Shown here one piece after another: positions 38,264 to 50,158 of a stretch of DNA of 64,000 nucleotides. Each line of letters opens with the position of its first letter. The stretch's first letter is position 1. The DNA comes from a virus. The notes beneath the pieces were generated by a model, which ran no database searches, was not told where the DNA came from, and saw only the letters and a program-made list of their open reading frames with translations. The stretch spans positions 124,001 through 188,000 of IMG/VR virus record IMGVR_UViG_3300027985_000843; one strand, written 5' to 3'. The position numbers and the translations under genes are program-made.

Positions 38264-41200
38264 TTAAATCCTTGCTCTCAAGTTGAATGTCAGGACAATG
38301 TACAGAAGCGGGAAAATCGGCTGGTAGTACGACTCGTAGCGCATGATGGTCGGGTCATCCGGATCGACCGTTGCCGAGATACCGGTGAAGGCTCCGACGA
38401 TCTCCGCCTGAACGAGCTGCTTGAACAGCGAGGTCATCGAGACCTCGACCTCGTTCGTACGGCTGCTCAGGTACTTGGTTCCCACGAAGGAGTCGAGAAC
38501 CACACGGCTCTGTTGCTGCACGTAGTCGGCGATCTGCGTGACCGTCGGCAGACGGGTCAGAACGCTGGTCATGTCGGTCGTCAAACCCTGTCGGATTCGG
38601 ACGATCGGGGACAGGTCCTCCAGGAGCGTGATGCCCGCGACAGCCGTCTGGTTCATCTGGATCGGATCCAGGATGCGAGGCAGTCGAGTGAAGCCGATGA
38701 CGTGCCGACGCGTCCACGGGGTCGCGACGTCCACAGCCGGGGAGATCACCGCACCACCCACCGCAGCGGCGAGGAAGGTGCCGTCCACCAGAACCTCGAA
38801 GTTCTCTCCCAGCTCGTTGGTCAGGGTGACAACTGCCGAGTCCGGATAGACGGCCGCGATGCGGTTGCTCAAGAGAGCCTTGGCGATGGTCTGAGCACTG
38901 GTCGGAGAAGTCCCCGACGCAAACCCGATGATGCCCATTCGCTCCGACTGGTTCCGGATGTTCGACTGCGTTTCGCAGTGCTGCATCAGGAAGCTGTAGA
39001 CCGACGTGTCGGTGGACAGCGGGAGCAAAAGGTTGGGCCGGATGTTGCCCGGCAACGGAGTCGCCAGGTCAGCGATGGCGTTGTTGAAGCTCTGTGCCGA
39101 CGCCTGGTTGGTGTTGACCACCTTGAGCACCTGCTTGATGCCCACGAGGACTGCACCGTTCTGGATCGCCAGGTAGGATGCGAGGGTGACCCGGTTCTCT
39201 GCCGAGAGGGGGCCGAAGTTCGCCTCGATCGTCTTGAACTGCTGGTACAGACGCGTCGAGAAGTCCTGCTTCATGAACTTGTAGGTGATGTAGTAGTAGT
39301 CGCCGATGGCCGGTTCCAAACCGCTCGGGTCGAACGTCTGGACAGTCGCGGTGTCGTCCACTCCCACACCCACGGTGTCGGTGACCACCACTTCGAGGCC
39401 GCCGATCGAGAGCCACGGAACGGCCGGGTTGACCTGGAAGGTCGGCGAGACGATCATGGTGAAGTTGCCGGTCGGGGTGTAGGTCCCGGTGGCTGCTGCC
39501 AAGACGGTGAAGCGCAGACCCGTGGTAGCGTCCGTGTAGGTCTGACCGGGGATGCCGGTACCGGCGGACCCACTCGCGTTCGAGGAGGTCACGGTGAAGA
39601 TGTCGTGTGCGTCCTCTCCGTTGTCGCCGCTGGTGCCCGGGATGATCTCAGTCCCAGTACCCTCGATGAAGGCACTCGTGGTGCCCGTCGCGAAGGCGAT
39701 GGTCGAGGTCGTCGCACCCGTCGCGATCGACTCGATGGTGACGTAGTCCTGACCCTCGATCTGGCTCACATACGCGACACCATCGGTCACGAAGCTTGCC
39801 GTTGCCACGAGTTCGTCGACGATCTCCTGGGCCCCGACCTGCGTCCAGCTCGCTCGATCTCCCGAGGTGAAGCCAAGGACTGTCAGAGCGGTGGAGGTTG
39901 ACAAGATCTCGACACTCGAACCCGCGTTGAAGGTTGTGGAAGTGAGGCGGACCTTGTTGAGGTTGGCGAGAGTGCCAACCGATGCCACGCCTGTGACCAC
40001 AGAGTTGATGTCACCGGCGATCGTAGCCGCTGTCACCGCCGCGCCTGCCGTCAGGGTGACCTGGTAGTCGACACCGTCCACTCGGACGTCGAGCTGGTCG
40101 TCCACGCCCGCCGTGACCAGGAAGGGGCCGGCCTCGGTACCAAGGAGGGTGGCTGGCTTCGTGGTCGCCGTCGGAGTACCGCTGGCGCTCTGGAAGGTCT
40201 CGAACCCAAGGTACGTCTCCGCAGTGCCCTGACGAACAGCCACGGTCGAGGCGTGGTCGAAGCCGCCGGGGAGGGCCGCCGGGGTCGAGTAGGATTCGAT
40301 GATGATGAACGCGGCCGTCGCTCCGATGCTCACCGCCTGAGCGAGGGCATTCGGTGCGGTGGCCGTGAAGTCGATACCACCGGAACCTGAGAAGTCCGCC
40401 GCGTCGATGGCCGCATTGATGTCGGTGACGATCTGCGCAGGGGTCGGGTTCGGCAAGCCTGTCGTCAACGTGACGTCGATCTCGTTCGGCGAACCGTCGA
40501 TCGTGATCTTCAGGGAGTCGTTGACAGCGGCCGTGATGGTTGCCGTCAAGCTGCCCGCCGTCAGGGCGATGCGGCTGCCAACAAGATAACCCTTGGCGGC
40601 CGTGTCGAGGTCGGTGACGTAAGGGGTCCCATTGAGGGTCGTACGCCAGAAGTCCGAGGCCCCAGCGAACATGCTGTAGGGGGCGGGCCCTTCGTTCGTG
40701 TAGACGGCATTGAGAGCCGCCGACGAAGAGAAGGTCACCGTCACGATCTCAGCCACCGGGGTTCCCGCGCCTGTGTGGAACGCGTCCGGAATGGTCTCCA
40801 CACCTCGCGGCCACTGCACCGTCTCCGGCAGGCCGGTCTTGACCCCAAAGCGGCACTGGTACAGGTTCGTGGCGTACGTCGTCGAATACACTTCGTACTG
40901 ACCCACGCCCACGGACCCTGCCACCTTGTTGGTGAAGATGTAGGTGTCATCCGAGAGACGGGAGTACCAGAAGGTCGCGTAAGCGTTGTGGTCCGGCGGG
41001 ACCGCGTCCTTCAAGGTGATGGTGCGGGTGGTTGCATCCACCTGCGTCACGGTGACGGGGTTGCGGCCGAGCGCGTCGCGGAGGTCGCGACCGGTGTACA
41101 CGATGACGAGATCAGGCCGATTGGTGTTCAGGCCAACGCGGTTGTTGCTGATCGCGGTGTACACGGAAGACCCCAACGGGGTATCGCGGCCGTTACCCAA

Positions 41201-42559
41201 GGTGGGAATCTCGGGCAGCAAGAACTGATTGGGGCTCTGTACCGCCGGCACCACCGTGGTGTTGACCACCCGGGTGCACTCGGCGTTGTAGAGCTTGTCG
41301 TCCACGAGGGTCGGGATGATCTGGGTGTCGTCGAAGACGGTGGCCCCAGCCGTTCTGCTCGTCGAAGCAACCACGTAGCTCGCGCCCCAGTGGATGATCG
41401 ACACGTCCGCACTCGGGTTCGAGACAACGAAGTCTTGCTCTTCGATGTAGTCGTTGCGGTTCGGAGAGAACCCGCAGCGAATGACATCGGTGACCATCGT
41501 GTTGGGCAGGTAGTCGAAGGTGTCCTGCCAGGTGTTCGCCCAGTATTGGATGGTCACGGTCGAACCGCTCGCGGGCGGCTGCGACAGGGTCACAACGCCA
41601 TTGGTACCATCCACCGAGATGGGGATGACCTGCACGCCATTGACCATGACCACGACCTTGCTCGTATCCGTCGTGGTGATGCCGCCGTCGGTGCCATCGA
41701 CGATCGGACGCTGGAAGACACGGAAGGCTGTGTTGCGGCTCGTCTGGGCACCGGCTGCGAATCCGAGGATCCCGTTGGCGTTGCCGCTGCCGATGACGAT
41801 GCTCTGAGCCGCCGTGAGACGCAGGTGGCTGCCACCTTGCTCGTCCGTGTAGACGGAGGTCGTCAGGCCGGTGATGGCTGCCGCGTCGACAAGGGCCTTG
41901 AGGCCGGCGGCCGTGTAGGTTCCCGCTGCGAAGACGACCGTTGACTCGGAGCCGCCATCGATGGTCAGGGAGAACGTGTCGGTGGTGCTGAGCGTGATGG
42001 TGTACGTCGCTGCTGCGGGAGCCGTCAGGATGGCCTGTTCCGTCGTCACCTGGTCGGACACGATGTCCGTAAAGGCGGTGTCGCCACGGTGGAAGTAGTA
42101 GGTGCAACGAACGTTGGAGCCCACGGGCGGGGGCACCTGGAGGACGACGTAACCGCCGGTCCCCTGAACACTGCCAACTGCAACCTGCTGCCCGTCCACG
42201 GTCACGCTGACATGACGAGGGCTGTTCGCCGTACGCCCGAAGCCTTCACCGGTGACGATCGGGTAGTTGCGGACACGGAACCGGGAAACGGCACCGTTGG
42301 CTGCCCCCAGAACGGGGCTGTTGGGGTTCGTCGAGTCAACCACGAACCTTTGCGAGACATCCTCACTGACAATCTGCTGGTCCAGGGTGGCAGAAGAGCC
42401 ACGAACCAACTCCAGGTCCGGCTGCTCCAACTCTTCCTGTCCCACGCCGATGAGCACAGGGATTCTCAGCCCCGCGACCATGTTGGCCGCATTGGCTTCG
42501 GTGAGGGTGCGGGTGTAGATCCCAGGGGGTACGTACGTAGCGAGAGGTCCAAGAGCCAC
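38264..42559 (-). CDS. Tail sheath protein, 1431 aa, with large beta insertions
   Basis: The N-terminus (VPPGIYTRTLTEANAANMVA, then IPVLIGVG) and the last 370 residues (RVVLDSFVGTKYLSSRTNEV, then QLVQAEIVGAFTG and the final strand LYIVLTFNLRARI) are those of contractile sheath proteins. The start is GTG with AAAGGAG seven bases upstream. Usual sheaths are 400-700 residues. Here residues about 183-265, 668-785 and 808-895 hold a repeated beta module (for example VDDQLDVRVDGVDYQVTL ending VLGF), also found in the gp25-like and 52118-53230 genes. Three copies of a 12-base leader motif precede it. The modules probably decorate the outside of the tail. Confidence 0.93.
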   Translation of the reverse strand: MALGPLATYVPPGIYTRTLTEANAANMVAGLRIPVLIGVGQEELEQPDLELVRGSSATLDQQIVSEDVSQRFVVDSTNPNSPVLGAANGAVSRFRVRNYPIVTGEGFGRTANSPRHVSVTVDGQQVAVGSVQGTGGYVVLQVPPPVGSNVRCTYYFHRGDTAFTDIVSDQVTTEQAILTAPAAATYTITLSTTDTFSLTIDGGSESTVVFAAGTYTAAGLKALVDAAAITGLTTSVYTDEQGGSHLRLTAAQSIVIGSGNANGILGFAAGAQTSRNTAFRVFQRPIVDGTDGGITTTDTSKVVVMVNGVQVIPISVDGTNGVVTLSQPPASGSTVTIQYWANTWQDTFDYLPNTMVTDVIRCGFSPNRNDYIEEQDFVVSNPSADVSIIHWGASYVVASTSRTAGATVFDDTQIIPTLVDDKLYNAECTRVVNTTVVPAVQSPNQFLLPEIPTLGNGRDTPLGSSVYTAISNNRVGLNTNRPDLVIVYTGRDLRDALGRNPVTVTQVDATTRTITLKDAVPPDHNAYATFWYSRLSDDTYIFTNKVAGSVGVGQYEVYSTTYATNLYQCRFGVKTGLPETVQWPRGVETIPDAFHTGAGTPVAEIVTVTFSSSAALNAVYTNEGPAPYSMFAGASDFWRTTLNGTPYVTDLDTAAKGYLVGSRIALTAGSLTATITAAVNDSLKITIDGSPNEIDVTLTTGLPNPTPAQIVTDINAAIDAADFSGSGGIDFTATAPNALAQAVSIGATAAFIIIESYSTPAALPGGFDHASTVAVRQGTAETYLGFETFQSASGTPTATTKPATLLGTEAGPFLVTAGVDDQLDVRVDGVDYQVTLTAGAAVTAATIAGDINSVVTGVASVGTLANLNKVRLTSTTFNAGSSVEILSTSTALTVLGFTSGDRASWTQVGAQEIVDELVATASFVTDGVAYVSQIEGQDYVTIESIATGATTSTIAFATGTTSAFIEGTGTEIIPGTSGDNGEDAHDIFTVTSSNASGSAGTGIPGQTYTDATTGLRFTVLAAATGTYTPTGNFTMIVSPTFQVNPAVPWLSIGGLEVVVTDTVGVGVDDTATVQTFDPSGLEPAIGDYYYITYKFMKQDFSTRLYQQFKTIEANFGPLSAENRVTLASYLAIQNGAVLVGIKQVLKVVNTNQASAQSFNNAIADLATPLPGNIRPNLLLPLSTDTSVYSFLMQHCETQSNIRNQSERMGIIGFASGTSPTSAQTIAKALLSNRIAAVYPDSAVVTLTNELGENFEVLVDGTFLAAAVGGAVISPAVDVATPWTRRHVIGFTRLPRILDPIQMNQTAVAGITLLEDLSPIVRIRQGLTTDMTSVLTRLPTVTQIADYVQQQSRVVLDSFVGTKYLSSRTNEVEVSMTSLFKQLVQAEIVGAFTGISATVDPDDPTIMRYESYYQPIFPLLYIVLTFNLRARI

Positions 42560-42591
42560 GGTGGTCTCCTTTTGCGAAGTGTTTCTTTTCT

Positions 42592-42633
42592 GGATCTGGG
42601 TCTAGGGCTTTTGGATCTGGGTCTGGATCTGGG
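42592..42633 (-). repeat. Three copies of the leader motif AGACCCAGATCC before the sheath gene
   Basis: On the plus strand GGATCTGGGTCT occurs at 42592-42603 and 42613-42624, and GGATCTGGG at 42625-42633. They lie in the 138-nt gap between the FmdB-type gene and the sheath gene, with AAAGGAG for the sheath just downstream. The same 12 bases precede the actin-like gene and a degenerate form precedes the tail tube. A role in translation or RNA processing of abundant proteins is inferred. Confidence 0.6.
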
Positions 42634-42697
42634 TATTCATTTGGAGGTCGGATGCCCGTCCTCTACCCCCATCATGCGAACGAAAGCATTATCGAAG

Positions 42698-43111
42698 TCA
42701 GTCTTCGGCTACTTCGAACTGCCGGATCCGATCGACGATCTTCTTTCGTTCTGCGACGACGTTACCGCCCTCTTCGTACTCGATGGCGTTAGCGTAGGTT
42801 CGACGCCGAAGGGCTCGGGTGCCTCCGACCTCCCTCACCTTTTCCTTGACCTTCTCACGCTCGTCGTATTCTTCCCAACGTGCCTCGGCAGAACGTCCCA
42901 CAGCTTGGTCAGCCGTAGGGGAGTCATGCTTGGTCACGCCACTGTTGCCGGGAGTCGAACCAGGGGTGAAGTCAAAACCAAAGCCTTGTCCATCCCACTG
43001 GCGAGGGGCTTCCTCACCGCAGTCAGGGCAGACGTGCATGGAGTGGTTTCCGGCCTTGAGCGTGCGGGTGAACTGCACTCCGCACAAGCAGCTGAATGTG
43101 TACTGGGGCAT
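42698..43111 (-). CDS. FmdB-type zinc-ribbon protein, 137 aa
   Basis: Residues 1-40 form an FmdB-like zinc ribbon with C8, C10, C28 and C31 (MPQYTFSCLCGVQF and HVCPDCGEEAPRQW). The remainder is a charged helical segment (SAEARWEEYDEREKVKEKVR) with a final ERKKIVDRIRQFEV helix. Small FmdB-like proteins are common in phage structural operons, but their role is unsettled; zinc-dependent nucleic acid binding or assembly control are options. The ATG at 43111 follows GATGAGGATGAG. It stands between the tail-completion gene and the sheath. Confidence 0.82.
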   Translation of the reverse strand: MPQYTFSCLCGVQFTRTLKAGNHSMHVCPDCGEEAPRQWDGQGFGFDFTPGSTPGNSGVTKHDSPTADQAVGRSAEARWEEYDEREKVKEKVREVGGTRALRRRTYANAIEYEEGGNVVAERKKIVDRIRQFEVAED

Positions 43112-43129
43112 CTCATCCTCATCTGATTT

Positions 43130-44299
43130 TTAGCTGATCTTCTCGTAGTCGCTGTTCCGGTCAATCAAGACTGCCCGGGTAGCGAAGAACAGGTCATCTG
43201 GTACCTGATGAATCCCTGAGGGCGCCGACGGATCTTCATCCCCGGCAGCTGTCACAGGCGTGACTCTGGACAAGGTGAGAGGTATGGGAATGTGGATCTC
43301 CCAGTCCGCTTGAACCTGCACAGACATTGACGCCTGATAGTACGAGTCGTCACCCGTTTCATCGGCGATCTCTTCCGATTCCCCGCCCATGGACACATCG
43401 ATCAACTCGATGCCCTCCAGGGCCAGCTTGGACCTCTTCTCGCCCCACAGGTACATAACCAGCAGGTCGGCGATCTCCTCCATCTGGTAGGGGTCACGAG
43501 CAATGACGTCGATATCGAAACTGGCTTCGAACTTCCCACCATACGCTTGAGCGGTGCTCACTCGATCGTCGTACACGACCACCGCAACCTTCTGACCTGC
43601 CTCTGCCCTCTTCCCGAAAGCCAAGACAACACCGGGCAAGGTCACACTGTCCGCAGAGTTCCACTTGAAGGGGATAGGGCCCCTAGACTCACCGGCATAT
43701 CGGTAGTCCGCTGTCACCAGCGAATCGGACGAGAATCGAGACAGGAACGTGATGGCTCCCGAGGGGGTCGCTGTGTAGTCTCGTCCCTCAAGAAGGGGGA
43801 ACTTCCGGTCCATCCACAAGCGAAGCGTGTTGGCAACCGGCTCTTGTTGGAGCTGCGCTGTGTGTTCCAATCCGCTCTGGAACAGGATGACGCCCTCGTC
43901 CTTCTGTGTGAGCAGAGGGTCCACAGCAAAGAACCCGATCTCGCCCGCGTCCGTGGGTGCCTGTAGGATCTCGATGAAATAGACCCCAGGGAGGGTTTGC
44001 AGGCCGTTCTCTTGGATGGCCCTCAGGTCTTCCCGGACCCACTCCAGCGGATAGACGGGGGAGCCGACGTACGCCAACATGACGTGGCTCAAGATCGTCC
44101 CCACGTAGTTGTCAGCCGAGAGCTGTACCTTGTTGGCGTTGGAACCCTTGACCACGATCCCGAACTGAGGCCGGCTGTCGAAGGCGAACTTGTTCTGGAT
44201 GTTTGGTGTGATCTTGCGGAAAACAGGATGCTTGCTGAAGCTGTCCTGAAGCTCCAGGAGGATGCGATTCTTGAGGGCGCCGATCAGGTAGTAGAACAC
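43130..44299 (-). CDS. Probable tail completion/terminator protein, 389 aa
   Basis: The start is a GTG sharing bases with the stop of the actin-like gene (TAGTG). The N-terminal helix IGALKNRILLELQDSFS and the strands PQFGIVVKGSNANKVQLSAD and MLAYVGSPVYPLEWVRED resemble neck or tail terminator proteins of large myoviruses. A C-terminal part around KFEASFDIDVIARDPYQMEE, then ADLLVMYLW and QADWEIHIPI has the alternating helix-strand pattern of tail terminators (gpU/gp15 type). It lies just upstream of the FmdB-type and sheath genes, where such proteins are usually found. The function is inferred from position and fold pattern. Confidence 0.65.
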   Translation of the reverse strand: MFYYLIGALKNRILLELQDSFSKHPVFRKITPNIQNKFAFDSRPQFGIVVKGSNANKVQLSADNYVGTILSHVMLAYVGSPVYPLEWVREDLRAIQENGLQTLPGVYFIEILQAPTDAGEIGFFAVDPLLTQKDEGVILFQSGLEHTAQLQQEPVANTLRLWMDRKFPLLEGRDYTATPSGAITFLSRFSSDSLVTADYRYAGESRGPIPFKWNSADSVTLPGVVLAFGKRAEAGQKVAVVVYDDRVSTAQAYGGKFEASFDIDVIARDPYQMEEIADLLVMYLWGEKRSKLALEGIELIDVSMGGESEEIADETGDDSYYQASMSVQVQADWEIHIPIPLTLSRVTPVTAAGDEDPSAPSGIHQVPDDLFFATRAVLIDRNSDYEKIS

Positions 44300-45333
44300 T
44301 ACTCGTCCTCGTATTCCTCGACAGCCAACACCAGAAGACCCTCAGCCACCGCTGTCAACGGATTGGCGGCAGCCCGTATGTCGGAAACGTCGATCGGGAA
44401 TCCGTCCTTCTGAATCTTCGAGAATTGCTGCTTGAAGACATCCATGAACCCTTCGACCTTGGACGTGCCGCCGGACACGATGAAGGGAATCGGTTCCAGA
44501 AGCTCCACCTCACCCCGGTTCTTGCTGAACTGGGCGGCGACGTTCTTCAGGCAGTAGTCGATGAGTGCCCGTACGTAGAGCGCAATGGCCTCTTGCTCGC
44601 GATTCTTGGGCTTCGTGAGGTTGACCCCCTTCTCCTTCACGGCACATATCTGAGCGGCCGTTCTGCCCACCGCACGGCCCGATTGTGCGTCCACCCAATC
44701 TCCGCCCCGAGCGAGGGAGAAGTCCATGGCCTGCGTCGCCTGGTAGCTCAGAGCCACATTGCACATACCGGCCCCGAAGCTCACGGCCAGGCCGTTGAAC
44801 ATGTCCTCGGCGCACTGACTGTAGACGATTGCCATGGCCTCATTCGTGGGGTGGGCCTGGTAACCAAGCTCATCCACGATGCGCCGGAAGACTTCCGTGT
44901 GGTAGATGATGTCCTGGCTCGGATCGTCAATCGGCGAAGACGGGACCGAGTAGAAGCAATGCTCTTTCGACTGGACAGGGTCCTGCAAGACGTGATGGAT
45001 CAAGATGCTCAGGATTTCCTGAGCATCGATCTCACCGGACGAGATGACACCCTTGCTCAGAGGGCGACGGGCCTCCCGCTTGAACAGGTTCGCCATCGTC
45101 AGAACGCTGTCCCCAATCACGATGAGCTTGCCGTCCTTCTCGACGTAGTCCACGCTGCTCATCTTGAGGCTTCGCTTGGCCGACATGTCGAGATCCAGGA
45201 AGGCGTCCCGGACCTGACTGACTCGCGTCGCATCGTCGAGCCCTCGACGAGCGGACACGATGTTCATCGTCCCGATATCGAGCCCCACGCCGGGCTTGTA
45301 TGCCTGCTCGGGCTCCACTTTCTTGTTACTCAT
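44299..45333 (-). CDS. Actin-fold ATPase (ParM/MreB-like), 344 aa
   Basis: The order of actin/Hsp70-fold motifs is complete. Phosphate-1 is GLDIGTMN at 17-24 (D19, G21, T22). Connect-1 is NEAMAIVYSQ at 164-173. Phosphate-2 is AVSFGAGMCNVAL at 183-195. GGDWVDAQSG at 210-219 matches the family's GG-x-x-D turn, and the adenosine motif is FIVSGGTSKVEGF at 284-296. The length fits bacterial actins. The phosphate-2 segment has Ser185 where an Asp is usual, so hydrolysis may be altered. It should bind ATP and may polymerise. It lies between the Dps-like and tail-completion genes with a leader motif before its GAGGACTAG site. The fold is clear; the role is unknown. Confidence 0.88.
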   Translation of the reverse strand: MSNKKVEPEQAYKPGVGLDIGTMNIVSARRGLDDATRVSQVRDAFLDLDMSAKRSLKMSSVDYVEKDGKLIVIGDSVLTMANLFKREARRPLSKGVISSGEIDAQEILSILIHHVLQDPVQSKEHCFYSVPSSPIDDPSQDIIYHTEVFRRIVDELGYQAHPTNEAMAIVYSQCAEDMFNGLAVSFGAGMCNVALSYQATQAMDFSLARGGDWVDAQSGRAVGRTAAQICAVKEKGVNLTKPKNREQEAIALYVRALIDYCLKNVAAQFSKNRGEVELLEPIPFIVSGGTSKVEGFMDVFKQQFSKIQKDGFPIDVSDIRAAANPLTAVAEGLLVLAVEEYEDE

Positions 45334-45357
45334 CTAGTCCTCGTTTTCTCTGAATTT

Positions 45358-45369
45358 GGATCTGGGTCT
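45358..45369 (-). repeat. Leader motif copy before the actin-like gene
   Basis: Plus-strand GGATCTGGGTCT, identical over 12 bases to two copies before the sheath gene, lies in the 46-nt gap between the Dps-like gene and the actin-like gene, about 25 bases before the ATG at 45333. The downstream minus-strand bases run AAATTCAGAGAAAACGAGG into the ribosome site. Confidence 0.55.
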
Positions 45370-45379
45370 CGTAGTCGAA

Positions 45380-46018
45380 TCAGCTACGATCGTAGCTGTA
45401 AACGACTTGACGACTTCGTTGCGTCAAGAGGTAGACGAACTCCTCGTGCTTGCTGGCGATGCCCTGAAGAAGGTCGTCCAAGCCTTCGGTCAGTGCCCCT
45501 GACGCCTCGATGTGCTTCTTGATGGTCGTGAGTGCCTTGATCAGCATCGTCTCGGCGTTCAAGGAGAGGGCAACGAGGGCGTTGGGCTCGGGGGCTCCCT
45601 TGTGCCCAAAGCGTTGCTTCCACGTCTCAAGGATGGTGTGCATGCTGTGGACCTGGTCGCACAGGCAAACCTTCGAGGGGTCGCCAGTCAGGCCAACGAG
45701 TCTCTCCGCCAGCCCGTCGATGCCCTCTTGGCTGTCGTTGTACAGACGCTCGAACAGCAGGTGGTCTCCGTAGTAGGCATGCCCCCGCGTCTGCCAGTGG
45801 GCCGTCTGGTGGACCATGGCAAGGAGGCGCAAGCCCACCAAGAGCTGAGACAGAGCGTCGTAGGGACTCTTCGGCTTCGGCACGTCGTAGTAGGCGGCAC
45901 TCTTGTTGACGTATTCGCGAGCCTCCCGACGCTGGACAGCTGTCACCGGAAGATACGGCGGGCCGTCGCGCATCGGGTCGTAGTCCATAGGGTCACGCCA
46001 CACTGCATCCGTGCTCAT
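45380..46018 (-). CDS. Dps-like ferritin with a complete ferroxidase ligand set, 212 aa
   Basis: Residues 50-200 read as a four-helix Dps bundle. The ferroxidase ligands H74, H86, D101 and E105 (HWQTRGHAYYGDH, then DGLAERL) have spacings 12, 15 and 4, exactly those of Dps proteins (H31, H43, D58, E62 in Listeria numbering). The helices TAHWQTRGHAYYGDHLLFER and DSQEGIDGLAERLVGL are diagnostic. A 50-residue N-terminal extension with Pro and Arg may contact DNA or a partner. Dps proteins form 12-mers that oxidise iron with peroxide and protect DNA. Finding it in a tail operon is unusual; it could protect or compact DNA or be packaged in the virion. Confidence 0.9.
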   Translation of the reverse strand: MSTDAVWRDPMDYDPMRDGPPYLPVTAVQRREAREYVNKSAAYYDVPKPKSPYDALSQLLVGLRLLAMVHQTAHWQTRGHAYYGDHLLFERLYNDSQEGIDGLAERLVGLTGDPSKVCLCDQVHSMHTILETWKQRFGHKGAPEPNALVALSLNAETMLIKALTTIKKHIEASGALTEGLDDLLQGIASKHEEFVYLLTQRSRQVVYSYDRS

Positions 46019-46041
46019 GACACACCTCTCGAATCAATGGA

Positions 46042-46725
46042 TTAGGCGGGCTTGCCCTTGGCCCGACCCTTCTTCAATTCCCGAAGTGACGACGCAGCTC
46101 CCTTGACGGTGGACCCTTCCAGAACGTCCACTTTTTTGGTCTGGATGTTCGTCTCAGCGTCTTGCGGCTGAATCGTGTCGGGGATGAAGACAGGGATGTC
46201 GCCACCCACAGCCTGGAGGGCTTCCTGGACACCCTCGACCACGGACACTTGCCCCGAGCCCAGTCGAGACAGCATGCCCACGATGGTCTCCAGCTTCTTC
46301 GTGTGGTCCTCTTGGAGGGACGAGTTGTGCTTCTGTGCCGCCGCGAGTTCCGTCAGGGCATCGGTCAACCGACCCTGGACCAACAGAAAGTCCTGACGGG
46401 CCTTCTCCGCTTCTTGCCGAGCCGAGACCAGTTCTTGCTTGGCCGCCTCCAGCTCGGACTTCAGTTGGTCAACCTCTTCCTTCGAGGCTGCCGGCACGCT
46501 GACGGGAGTGGCCTTTGGCGCCGGCCTAACGGCCCCAGATTGGCCTTTCAAGAGGAACAGGCGCTTCTGGTCGATCCCAATCCACAAGTCCCGGGAACGG
46601 TGTGCCTCGTCCGCCGGAATGTGTACTGCGACTCGATAGGGCACCGGGAGCTTGAGATCCTCGATGACGTGAGTACCTGTGACCATGCCCACTACTGTGT
46701 AGGTGCCCTGCGTTGGGTTGTTCAT
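46042..46725 (-). CDS. Coiled-coil protein upstream of the Dps-like gene, 227 aa
   Basis: Residues 10-65 form a small beta domain (TYTVVGMVTGTHVIEDLKLP and DLWIGIDQKRLFLL). Residues about 85-155 form a clear coiled coil (EVDQLKSELEAAKQELVSAR onward), followed by a Gly/Ser-rich linker and a basic tail ending ELKKGRAKGKPA. It overlaps the neck gene by 4 nt. The basic end and coiled coil suggest a dimer that binds nucleic acid or a partner, such as a tether between neighbouring products. No family was recognised. Confidence 0.65.
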   Translation of the reverse strand: MNNPTQGTYTVVGMVTGTHVIEDLKLPVPYRVAVHIPADEAHRSRDLWIGIDQKRLFLLKGQSGAVRPAPKATPVSVPAASKEEVDQLKSELEAAKQELVSARQEAEKARQDFLLVQGRLTDALTELAAAQKHNSSLQEDHTKKLETIVGMLSRLGSGQVSVVEGVQEALQAVGGDIPVFIPDTIQPQDAETNIQTKKVDVLEGSTVKGAASSLRELKKGRAKGKPA

Positions 46726-47225
46726 TTGGATTTCCTCATGGCAGATCGAAGCTGTTTCCGAATCTCTTTCTGAATTCGTTTTTTGATGATCTCGCGGGCT
46801 TCTTTTTTAGCCTCTTCGATGATTCTCGTTGACTTGTGGCCCGGGTGCATCCAGCCCCCGTTTCGCATCGACTTGGCTGTGGCCGTGCGGAAGATGACCT
46901 CTCCGTCGTCCGTGATGATAGGGATGGGCCGGCGAGCTTTTTGGAGCCACGTCATCTGCCCGCGTGCCTGCCCCTTGAGGAGGGGAAAGAAGGCCGGGTG
47001 CGTGGCGATGAGCGTGATGCTGTTGGGCCCGATCTTGATCTCCAAACCGTTCCGAAGCGCTTGCTTGGCTCGGGCTGAGAACGCAGCCAGCTCAATCCGG
47101 GCCTTCATTGCCTTGAACACCTCTTTTTGAAGGGACTTGAGCACCTTCTCAGGGTGGATCGAAGACAACGCCCCCACGGCGAGGGGCTTGTAGTTGACCC
47201 GGGCGACGAAGGGATACTTGGGCAT
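46722..47225 (-). CDS. HK97-gp10-like neck/tail completion protein, 167 aa
   Basis: The start at 47225 (MPKYPFVARVNYKP) shares TGATG with the upstream gene; seven codons further upstream in frame there is no better site. The protein has the gp10-type order: a helix FSARAKQALRNGLEIKIG, strands NSITLIATHPAFFPLLKGQA, then a central loop and the C-terminal basic helix KKEAREIIKKRIQKEIRKQL. Such proteins sit at the head-tail interface as connector subunits. It is followed by an ATGA overlap with the coiled-coil gene. Confidence 0.7.
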   Translation of the reverse strand: MPKYPFVARVNYKPLAVGALSSIHPEKVLKSLQKEVFKAMKARIELAAFSARAKQALRNGLEIKIGPNSITLIATHPAFFPLLKGQARGQMTWLQKARRPIPIITDDGEVIFRTATAKSMRNGGWMHPGHKSTRIIEEAKKEAREIIKKRIQKEIRKQLRSAMRKSK

Positions 47226-48577
47226 CAGTACATGATGTCTTCCCACGTCTTAGTGCGGCCTCGAATCTCCCTCTCGTCAGGGATGTTCGGCTTGTCCGTC
47301 ACTTGCGGGGGTTCGTTCTCCGGCGGGATGGCCGGGGCCAATTGCGTCTGACTCGTGGGCCGGTCCATCGGCACACGGTATCGGATGTCCCTCTCGTCGA
47401 TGTGCCCGACAGTGAAGTGCTGCTGAAGGACCATGCCCCGATTGGTGGGCATTCTGACGGCCCCCACGCTGTAGCGCTCCCCGTTGATCTTCACCAGGAA
47501 GTCTCGTTGCGACAGCAGAGGGCTGGGGCCGGTCCAGACCTCGTAGGCGTGTTCGATGGTCCGGCCGATGTCCCGCTGGGCAATCCTGCGTTCCGCGTCG
47601 TCCGGAGCGATGACAAGGTCGAACGGACCCTCGTACCCTCCGATGAAGCCCGTCCCGAAACACTTCGGGCAGTCGTTTTGCGGCTGCTTGTACCTCGGCC
47701 TCTCAGTGCACCCACACGGGATGCCATTCCGCTTCCGGATGAAGATCTTGACCCGCTCCCCACCCTGCCGAAGGATCCAAGCATTCCGGCGCACAGCTTC
47801 TCGCCAGATGTAGTCGATCTTCTCGATCTCTTTGCTCGACGTGAAGGTTGCCCACTCCAGGGGTGTCTCCACGAGGTCCTGGGGTTGCGCTTGGCTGATG
47901 GGCAGGGTCGTCGGAACGCCCACCGTGGAGACTCGATAGAAAACTCGCTGGTCCAGATCGGTCCGAAGCAAACTGCGATTGTACAGGTAGGTGACCCGCA
48001 CCTCCGCATTAGCACCCGGGACAATGGCCGGCTCAAGCGTCTGCGTGTCGACGTTGGGGTACCACATGGGATCCAGCTCGATCTCTCCAGACGTGCCATC
48101 CACCCGAAGGATGGTGGCCCGCGTGCCATTCACCGTGACAACGACATCGGAGGGAGCGTCCGCCGGTGTGGCTTGGGACCCGGACTTGACGATGGGGCGA
48201 CGCTGCGTGCACAGCACGTAGCGTACCTGGTCAGAACCAGCCGTCTGGACGCCCCGAAGCACCCAGTAGTCATCCTCCACCAGCTCCCCCTCGATGAGCA
48301 CGTTGTCCGTGCGGTCTCGCCAGTACATCGCCCCTATCGGGAGAGACGTGAGTCGTTCGTACGGACCGAACTCAGAATCGAAGGCGCGGTAGATGTTGAC
48401 CCCACAGACGTGGAACTGCGAGTTGAGAGCCAAGCTCGCGGGGTCGTCCCATACGAGGTCGTACACACCAGCCTCGAAGCCGCTCGTCAAGAACAGGTTC
48501 CTGGGAGGGGCCGGCCACGGGGCCTTCTCGATTTCATCCCACTGGGGGCGTCTGTCTCGGTCCGATGCGTAAGGCAT
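47225..48577 (-). CDS. Neck/virion protein with FN3-like N-domain and DnaJ-like zinc knuckle, 450 aa
   Basis: Residues 20-105 resemble a fibronectin-type domain (VYDLVWDDPASLALNSQFHV, then GVNIYRAFDSEFGPYERLTS). Around 300-325 lie CGC and CPKC with a following FGTGF, giving a DnaJ-type zinc knuckle. Later strands (DFLVKINGERYSVGAVRMPT, then RGMVLQQHFTVGHID) have a neck-protein appearance. The ATG at 48577 follows GAGGAGACC. Large myoviruses of several groups carry similarly built proteins in the connector region. The specific role is inferred from context. Confidence 0.7.
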   Translation of the reverse strand: MPYASDRDRRPQWDEIEKAPWPAPPRNLFLTSGFEAGVYDLVWDDPASLALNSQFHVCGVNIYRAFDSEFGPYERLTSLPIGAMYWRDRTDNVLIEGELVEDDYWVLRGVQTAGSDQVRYVLCTQRRPIVKSGSQATPADAPSDVVVTVNGTRATILRVDGTSGEIELDPMWYPNVDTQTLEPAIVPGANAEVRVTYLYNRSLLRTDLDQRVFYRVSTVGVPTTLPISQAQPQDLVETPLEWATFTSSKEIEKIDYIWREAVRRNAWILRQGGERVKIFIRKRNGIPCGCTERPRYKQPQNDCPKCFGTGFIGGYEGPFDLVIAPDDAERRIAQRDIGRTIEHAYEVWTGPSPLLSQRDFLVKINGERYSVGAVRMPTNRGMVLQQHFTVGHIDERDIRYRVPMDRPTSQTQLAPAIPPENEPPQVTDKPNIPDEREIRGRTKTWEDIMY

Positions 48578-48613
48578 GGGGTCTCCTCATGGAACGAACC
48601 ATAAGGAGAGTTG

Positions 48614-48904
48614 CTACGCAGAAGGCTTGTCCTCAGCCATCTCGAAGGCCCCTGTCTTGGGATCGATCTCGATAACGGTGCCCGGAGCGAAGCCCCTCTC
48701 CGTGAGGATCTTGTTGAAGATCTCGTCCCGCTGCTGATCCAGGCGGCGAATGGTCGCGAGGATCTGTACCTTCCGTAGGTCGATATCGATGCCCTCGATC
48801 GAGAGCTGCGTGCGGAACTTCACGATGTGGTCGAGCTGGCTCAGAACCTCCTGAGACACAGGGGTGTTCTGGGGGATTCTGACGTCATCATTTTCAGTAG
48901 GCAT
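48614..48904 (-). CDS. Small helical protein in the neck block, 96 aa
   Basis: A short helical protein with an amphipathic central helix (QEVLSQLDHIVKFRTQLSIE, then DIDLRKVQILATIRRLDQQR) and a terminal turn with GFAPGTVIEIDPKTGAF. The start ATG at 48904 has GGAGATGAACC before it. Position suggests a small connector or assembly factor between two neck genes. No family was recognised. Confidence 0.65.
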   Translation of the reverse strand: MPTENDDVRIPQNTPVSQEVLSQLDHIVKFRTQLSIEGIDIDLRKVQILATIRRLDQQRDEIFNKILTERGFAPGTVIEIDPKTGAFEMAEDKPSA

Positions 48905-48928
48905 GGTTCATCTCCATCTGGTTTTTGG

Positions 48929-49819
48929 CTAGAAGCCAACGAACTTACGAGGGGACAGTGCGCCCCTCCCAGCGTAGGGTCCGAAGGCGGAACGAATGCC
49001 AACCCCATAGCGGGGTTGCTTGAGACCACGAATCGTTTTGACCGTCTGCTTTGCTCGGTCGAGCTGCGTGTCAAACTGGTCCTTCATGGCCTGATAGGCG
49101 GACTCGTACTTGCTCGACTTCTCGATGGTCAACGACACACCACCGATGCTGTAGTCGAACTCGTCGGCGATCCAGTTGACCATGAGGGCGAACAGTGCGT
49201 GCATGGCAGCACCGTTAAGGAGCAGGGTCCGCCACTCAGGGTAGCACTGGACAAGCGTGTCGCAGTTGTTGAAGGGCGTCCTCGGGGGAGCCGCTGCGAT
49301 CATGTCCAAGCTGCGGTTGATGTACTCCTGGAGTTCGATGTCCTCCCAGATGTACCCGAAGACCTGGTTGAACTGTCCGATGGTCGTCTCATGGGCGGGC
49401 GGGCGAAAATGGTAGTTGCGATCGGGGTTGTTGTCCCGAAGGTAGATCCGGAGTCTCCGGATCATGTCGTCTTCGCAGGTGGTAAACTGGCTCGCGAGGT
49501 TCGTGGACTTGTCGATGACCTCGAACTCCTGCAACACCTGGTGGATGGGGCCACCGATGCGCTCTCTGAAGGTCCACCGGATCCGGTAGTTGCCGATGTT
49601 GGCGTCCAAGGGCACGATGATGCTGACGTAGTAGGCCCCTACGGAAGGATTGACGGGGGTGCGCCTGGGCGCCCCAAGGAGCACTTCCTGCCCCGTGGTG
49701 AAGTCGTACAGGGCATAGGTGATCTCGGCCGCGTTCGTGGGTACCCCAGACGTGTCCTCTAGGAAGATGTTGAGGTCTTCGCTTCCGAGCTGTTGTCCCT
49801 TGTAGAACGCGACGGACAT
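48929..49819 (-). CDS. Head-tail connector protein with N-terminal Ig-like module, 296 aa
   Basis: Residues 1-105 hold an Ig-like module (GQQLGSEDLNIFLEDTSG, then RTPVNPSVGAYYVSII and a final EFEVID) that also occurs in the gene at 50158-50910 and, in weaker form, at 51357-51746. Residues about 120-296 are helical with the connector-like helices MIRRLRIYLRDNNPDRNYHF and YINRSLDMIAAAPP, and a Cys pair in FNNCDTLVQC. The ATG follows the previous TAG directly. The fusion suggests an adaptor ring that also carries an outward-facing domain. Confidence 0.72.
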   Translation of the reverse strand: MSVAFYKGQQLGSEDLNIFLEDTSGVPTNAAEITYALYDFTTGQEVLLGAPRRTPVNPSVGAYYVSIIVPLDANIGNYRIRWTFRERIGGPIHQVLQEFEVIDKSTNLASQFTTCEDDMIRRLRIYLRDNNPDRNYHFRPPAHETTIGQFNQVFGYIWEDIELQEYINRSLDMIAAAPPRTPFNNCDTLVQCYPEWRTLLLNGAAMHALFALMVNWIADEFDYSIGGVSLTIEKSSKYESAYQAMKDQFDTQLDRAKQTVKTIRGLKQPRYGVGIRSAFGPYAGRGALSPRKFVGF

Positions 49820-50158
49820 CTACTCACCCCACCGTTCTTCCCAAGTGACAGTGATGGTCAACCCACCGCCGCGCTTCTGGGTGTCGATGTTCTTCAGCTG
49901 GCTACTGATACCACCTGGAACCTTGGAAGGGAAGGTGAAGTATCGACTGAACTCCCTTCGCAGGTCCTGTTTGTCGGGGGCCCCGTCGAACTGTTCCTCC
50001 AGCGTCTGGGGAGGTACCGTCAACACTACCTCGAAGGTATCCCCTGACTCGTCGACCTTCTGAACGAACCTACCCCACTTCTCCCGGAAGGCGGGAGGGA
50101 GGTCTCTCTTGGTCAGAGCCCGCAGATACCTAGCGACAACACGCCTTACCAAGTTCAT
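49820..50158 (-). CDS. Small neck protein, 112 aa
   Basis: The start at 50158 (MNLVRRVVARYLRAL) shares TGATG with the previous gene's stop. The protein has a basic N-terminal helix, a segment GRFVQKVDESGDTFEVVLTV, then REFSRYFTFPSKVPGG and a final strand LTITVTWEERWG. The size and helix-strand order resemble a small connector protein. No clear family was recognised. Confidence 0.62.
   Translation of the reverse strand: MNLVRRVVARYLRALTKRDLPPAFREKWGRFVQKVDESGDTFEVVLTVPPQTLEEQFDGAPDKQDLRREFSRYFTFPSKVPGGISSQLKNIDTQKRGGGLTITVTWEERWGE

Follow-up and report, generated by a model that had tools for sequence, protein, structure and literature searches.

We report that a virus encodes, within its tail operon, an actin of the Volactin family next to a second protein, u227, that is kept or lost together with it. 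Both genes lie in bases 124001-188000 of a 371,739-base IMG/VR virus record (IMGVR_UViG_3300027985_000843); this 64,000-nucleotide stretch is referred to here as the window. We regard the membership of the actin in the Volactin family as practically certain and consider it very probable that volactin and u227 are partners; that the two help to organise virions or tails is a reading we favour with modest confidence. Because volactin and a partner with a cellular-like tail sit among tail genes, the arrangement suggests that in a large group of jumbo phages an actin organises how particles are built or where they are placed.

A volactin encoded between neck and sheath genes

The open reading frame (ORF) of the actin is real and is read from the minus strand, the plus strand of the same interval holding a different, meaningless frame.

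44299..45333 (stop codon included), minus strand: phage volactin, actin-fold protein of 344 residues; PF25216 at 250 bits, model with a predicted local distance difference test score (pLDDT) of 92.4, Ser185 invariant

It starts with an ATG that has a good ribosome site (gagga), and its TAG stop shares one base with the GTG start of the tail terminator gene (taGTG). A preliminary description of the window had listed five actin/Hsp70-fold motifs, and all of them were found, in order, in this minus-strand frame: GLDIGTMN (residues 17-24), NEAMAIVYSQ (164-173), SFGAGMCNVAL (185-195), GGDWVDAQSG and FIVSGGTSKVEGF. That description had named ParM, MreB, AlpC and Ta0583 as the kinds of actin to compare; the profile search returned Volactin (PF25216) instead, at more than the cut-off of 35 bits (E = 4.7e-74, model positions 3-321 of 321) and as the sole Pfam family above its cut-off. 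The family takes its name from a filament-forming actin of Haloferax volcanii. Against the NCBIfam models for MamK (NF040964) and salactin (NF053533), each with a cut-off of 400 bits, the protein scored 21.7 and 11.6 bits; PHROGs held no family for it, and a sequence search of the PDB gave chance matches only.

The actin fold expected in the preliminary description was borne out by an AlphaFold model built with 65 relatives, which also reached a predicted template modelling score (pTM) of 0.89. The top solved structures in Foldseek were MreB-type actins and the MamK double filament (template modelling score, TM, 0.70), with E about 1e-14, and BeeR (TM 0.70). We read the protein as an actin of the MreB-like branch. 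No predicted viral protein was a close match; those that matched at all were Hsp70s, gp506 of phage G and a small number of unnamed entries. As the fold superfamily includes Hsp70, one may postulate that the protein is an ATP-dependent assembly factor or chaperone acting on tail proteins as a monomer or short oligomer, without any cytoskeleton; its place in an assembly operon would suit such a role, and the very large sheath (1431-1665 residues) and tails may need help. The top solved matches, however, are filament-forming actins, the 344 residues make up a single actin-type domain, and the same partner motif (described below) goes with a filament-forming cellular actin. We rejected the Hsp70-type chaperone family, given that the C-terminal substrate-binding domain is absent, and a chaperone role more broadly appears distinctly unlikely.

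Ser185 had been pointed out as standing where other actins carry the phosphate-2 Asp, with the suggestion that the nucleotide cycle may differ. The position was correct; a peculiarity of this protein is ruled out, as Ser185 is invariant in 65/65 aligned phage, archaeal and bacterial members, including one from Haloferax mucosum (L130). Gly17, Asp19, Gly21, Thr22, Asn164, Glu165, Gly187, Gly189, Gly288 and Gly289 are invariant in the same alignment. From these sequences Ser185 reads as a mark of the Volactin family, and it predicts a nucleotide cycle proper to the family rather than to this phage. Since the residue is also invariant in the Haloferax lineage, whose volactin is a published dynamic filament (PMC10869688), it is by itself no argument against polymerisation.

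The genes follow one another on one strand in the order 450-residue minor tail/neck protein, 174-residue protein, u227, Dps-like protein, volactin, tail terminator, Zn ribbon and sheath. Gene names follow the homologues in Tunturi_5, a cultivated phage of an acidobacterium. The actin therefore does lie between neck and sheath genes, as the preliminary description had it, and its remark that no phage actin was known in that setting also stood: our search of an open-licence library without preprints turned up no description of one there and no report of a phage volactin.

Joint loss of volactin and u227, and a u227 tail motif shared with cellular volactin neighbours

Both the adaptor candidate upstream of volactin and the conservation of the pair across a large group of jumbo phages had been overlooked in the preliminary description. 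Synteny was assessed in a sample of 123 volactin clusters at 90% identity. Of the 113 evaluable clusters, 103 had a u227 gene upstream of volactin, and tail terminator, Zn ribbon and sheath stood downstream in 67-68 of 88; these counts describe volactin phages only, because the loci were found through volactin. Ten clusters gave no u227 match: four of these carry a weaker adaptor that is built alike, two have u227 about 3.1 kb upstream, and L003 and L249 have none by eye; L247 and L258, also without a match, belong to or resemble the L246 group.

A separate search started from the tail terminator, with patterns that favour near relatives. It yielded 45 clusters with enough upstream sequence, of which 41 had both volactin and u227, four had neither and none had a single member of the pair; if the two genes were independent, the exact chance of this split would be 1 in 148,995, relatedness being ignored. 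The cultivated Tunturi_5, whose host is an acidobacterium, is among the four. The other three are contig fragments, so a full absence of the pair from those genomes is not implied, though two of them lack volactin on the whole available contig.

These results also bear on the idea that volactin and u227 are virion components, built into the neck or tail (as a filament or collar, for example) with the actin fold serving structure or ejection. The fixed one-strand place between the neck genes and the tail terminator, in a late structural operon and with translational coupling to the terminator, would agree with this. The pair is nevertheless missing from related jumbo phages that share the terminator, Zn ribbon and sheath, and is thus not an obligate tail part, and the nearest studied member of the family is a cytoplasmic filament; we consider a virion component unlikely.

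From the N to the C terminus, u227 is made up of a small domain, a coiled coil, a flexible linker and a conserved tail.

46042..46725, minus strand: u227, proposed volactin adaptor of 227 residues; proposed from its position next to volactin and its joint loss with volactin
46276..46509, minus strand: predicted u227 coiled coil, about residues 73-150; coiled-coil type matches in Pfam/PHROGs
46066..46200, minus strand: u227 C-terminal tail, residues 176-220, DIPVFIPDTI...VKGAASSLRELKK, proposed volactin-binding element; column counts, profile matches and a read-through model

Searches of Pfam and PHROGs with u227 gave matches of coiled-coil type only, and none to a DNA-binding domain. The latter result bears on the idea that the pair segregates genomes or positions DNA in the manner of ParM/AlpC, in which case u227 would be a DNA-binding adaptor. 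An actin with a co-transcribed adaptor is the AlpAC layout, volactin filaments resemble ParM in their dynamics, and the volactins of Omnitrophota adjoin a ParA. Yet no parC/alpS-type repeat array was found in positions 42000-50000 of the window, and the setting of volactin and u227 in a structural operon is unlike that of alpAC, which are expressed as early genes and lie at the prophage end. Taken together, this makes segregation very unlikely.

The u227 tail combines PxFIPSxI with a later VDxAxxALRxLRK, the two being separated by 20-25 variable residues. Counted by column in 62 tails, the conserved positions gave F in 53/62, P in 59/62, L in 61/62 and R or K in 62/62. A profile built from the phage tails alone was used to search every ORF in 80 cellular volactin loci. 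Of the 148 same-strand ORFs lying at most 250 bases from volactin, 27 were matched, compared with 6 of the remaining 4107 ORFs (Fisher p = 3e-35). Shuffled ORFs produced 17 weak matches that were not adjacent to volactin, and on this ground a chance or low-complexity origin of the motif was rejected. In haloarchaea the matched protein is a DUF7139 membrane protein and in Omnitrophota one with a coiled coil, while the matches in Clostridia and other groups are small proteins; the tail motif is thus common to phages, archaea and bacteria. In four Haloferax genomes a gene 106-127 bases upstream of volactin matches the phage profile (E 6e-5 to 2e-4), and a haloarchaeal DUF7139 gene directly upstream of volactin (L408, 493-1395) has two copies of the motif. 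These matches make the DUF7139 protein a candidate volactin anchor. A CetZ/FtsZ-like gene was also seen nearby in Haloferax, after volactin.

For the reverse comparison, 27 haloarchaeal partners were chosen by their place and a neighbouring SWGG element, and the resulting profile, run against 15,917 phage ORFs, retrieved 24 u227 proteins and 2 other ORFs at E <= 1. A volactin neighbour with a VDxxxxxLxxLR tail motif, a criterion proposed here and unpublished, was found both in the window and in cellular loci.

In one phage (L057), u227 and volactin lie in one frame and are separated by a stop codon. We read this TAG as Gln for the purpose of modelling only, without implying that the phage does so, and folded the resulting single chain together with 35 actin rows and 16 other natural read-through rows. 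The model had an overall pLDDT of 88.1 and a pTM of 0.73. The u227 tail became ordered in it: within the tail, residues 161-180 reached a pLDDT of 92-94, with a strand at 165-170 and a helix at 173-187; linkers 63-82 and 123-138 fell below 50. Because a strand requires a partner strand, the modelled tail most likely joins the sheet of either the actin or the N-terminal domain of u227.

Neighbouring genes and distribution of volactins

The remaining genes of the tail module in the window are as follows.

47225..48577, minus strand: 450-residue minor tail/neck protein; Tunturi_5 gp322, annotated minor tail protein, E = 1e-60
46722..47246, minus strand: 174-residue module protein; conserved neighbour, no family match
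45380..46018, minus strand: Dps/ferritin-like protein; PHROG 3636 E = 4.7e-12, Pfam Ferritin below cut-off
43130..44299, minus strand: tail terminator, GTG start; family hmmsearch matches Tunturi_5 gp324 (annotated tail terminator), E = 1.3e-32
42698..43111, minus strand: Zn-ribbon protein; Pfam Zn_ribbon_8 E = 1.5e-5, below cut-off; Tunturi_5 gp325 E = 8.8e-16
38264..42559, minus strand: tail sheath, 1431 residues; family matches Tunturi_5 gp326 (annotated tail sheath), E = 8e-186

Judged from its place and look, the 174-residue protein is probably a neck/tail completion protein. The Dps/ferritin-like gene stands between u227 and volactin in 35 of 113 clusters, and similar proteins are also encoded upstream of the tail terminator in relatives without volactin (L400, L380). 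The sheath is very large, with 1431 residues in the window and up to about 1850 in relatives, and contains many inserted repeats. HNH-type endonuclease genes were observed within or beside the volactin neighbourhood in some phages (L008, L213, L055).

Three alignment scans of viral contigs detected 277, 300 and at least 567 volactin coding stretches in overlapping sets; a single-protein scan of viral contigs gave no matches. Many of the volactin-bearing contigs exceed 200 kb, the largest having 618,736 bases. Among 50,697 deposited phages there were two carriers, both uncultured huge phages, and no cultivated one. One 297-kb viral contig (G005) encodes two volactins (L061 and L073), each with its own 174-residue-type and u227-type gene. 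In Halobacteria, 117 of 195 sampled genomes had a volactin above the cut-off, and further cellular volactins are scattered over Omnitrophota, Planctomycetota, Acidobacteriota, Nitrospirota, Thermoplasmatota, Patescibacteria and others.

A quick tree gathered the tail-module phages in one clade of 75 rows with a Shimodaira-Hasegawa-like approximate likelihood ratio test (SH-aLRT) support of 99, and a second viral group and the cellular volactins fell outside it. Two rows labelled as cellular were placed within the clade: L087 carries a whole tail module and is hence a phage contig binned with a bacterium, and L088 is probably viral too, judged from its position. As the tree is unrooted, the direction of transfer is not deducible from it. 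The cellular homologues in haloarchaea and several bacterial phyla could be taken to mean that the gene is a passenger, a host-derived actin that disturbs the host cytoskeleton and came to lie in the tail operon by accident. A passenger would be expected to move, however, whereas the same place is kept over wide divergence, and the tail-module phages form a clade apart from the cellular members; we therefore hold this explanation to be highly improbable.

Several cellular loci have unusual architectures. In Omnitrophota (L089, L095, L098, L103), tandem volactins of about 330 and 470-520 residues have a ParA upstream and coiled-coil genes around them, in what looks like an undescribed bacterial actin system. 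The volactin domain ends proteins of 740-940 residues in Planctomycetota (L091, L092, L093, L094), the N-terminal parts of which are long, acidic and repeat-like, and many haloarchaea have a second volactin domain within proteins of about 900-1350 residues (e.g. G140:C2:40973-41923). Four bacterial relatives (L113, L102, L163, L100) have GLDVGTAF in place of GLDVGTMN and neighbour small heat-shock-like and gas-vesicle-like (GvpL/F-type) genes; these loci are possibly gas-vesicle clusters.

Proposed role and comparison with known systems

The explanation that we favour, with modest confidence, is that phage volactin works together with u227. The conserved C-terminal tail of u227, with its FIP motif, strand and amphipathic helix, would bind the actin directly; the N-terminal half would hold some part of the neck or tail assembly as cargo, and the coiled coil would provide multivalency by joining several u227 molecules. 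Late in infection, ATP-driven actin filaments anchored in this way may gather, hold or move tails or particles in the giant infected cell, serving as scaffold or motor either for the assembly of tails or virions or for the positioning of particles. Haloarchaea would use the same pairing, with the DUF7139 membrane protein instead of u227 anchoring filament ends to the membrane; as that adaptor is a membrane protein, the membrane-touching tips of volactin filaments (PMC10869688) would thereby be explained. On this basis we tentatively propose, as a possibility somewhat short of probable, that a jumbo-phage lineage runs an actin-based tail or virion assembly system on the volactin adaptor-tail code of haloarchaea and bacteria, an archaeal-type cytoskeleton having been re-wired from the membrane to the virion.

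This interpretation must be made cautiously, and several points weigh against it. Our results cover the family, the predicted fold, the conserved place among tail genes, the joint loss of the pair and the shared tail motif; filament formation, ATPase activity, binding of the tail to the actin, the cargo of u227 and the function in the phage are inferred. The shared tail motif is short (15-20 residues), and profile-profile comparison of the tail motifs gave a probability of 58-65%, a moderate value that is expected for a motif of this length. The Fisher tests and other statistics were computed on related sequences, and the L057 evidence consists of one artificial chain through a stop read as Gln, at a pTM of 0.73. 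In one viral clade the actin is located outside this tail module, and the distant viral relatives L003 and L249 showed no adaptor by eye.

To our knowledge, the phage cytoskeletons described to date (PhuZ, AlpC) serve to transport capsids or to position either DNA or the phage nucleus. If our proposal is true, the presence of an actin gene in the tail operon across hundreds of phage contigs would be the first sign of a tail-assembly cytoskeleton. Available portions of jumbo-phage reviews and of the huge-phage paper make no mention of phage actins (PMC7824862, PMC13282480, PMC7162821). The gathering of tails and finished particles in jumbo-phage cells, the 'bouquets' of PhiPA3, is without a known mechanism (PMC9067925). 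The binding factors of haloarchaeal volactin were called unknown in a 2024 paper (PMC10869688), and the tail motif provides a testable binding partner for it in the adjoining DUF7139 protein.

With respect to known systems, MamK, MreB and BeeR are the best fold matches of phage volactin (TM about 0.7), but they have Asp at phosphate 2 and only 14-18% identity to it. PhuZ, the tubulin of nucleus-forming jumbo phages, moves capsids; like volactin it is a cytoskeletal protein of large phages, but it has the tubulin fold, and no tubulin match was found in this virus record. AlpC and AlpA of prophage CGP3 offer a precedent for a phage-borne actin with a neighbouring adaptor; AlpC belongs to a different actin family, however, the DNA repeats (alpS) to which AlpA binds have no counterpart found in 42000-50000, and alpC and alpA are both expressed early (PMC4446434). 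The tail module of Tunturi_5 keeps the gene order of the window, with homologues of the minor tail protein, the tail terminator, the Zn ribbon and the sheath, and unlike the window phage it has neither volactin nor u227.

The volactin of Hfx. volcanii (HVO_2015, VolA) forms dynamic filaments with tips bound to the membrane (PMC10869688). The phage gene differs in being part of a tail operon, and the cell-shape role does not carry over; its partner also differs, since the DUF7139 membrane protein is replaced by a soluble protein that has a coiled coil and an N-terminal part seen only in phages. Plasmid volactins of Haloarcula and Natrinema are 37-38% identical to phage volactin, and Hfx. volcanii volactin shares with it homology over the whole length, Ser at phosphate 2 and an adjacent partner with the same kind of tail motif.
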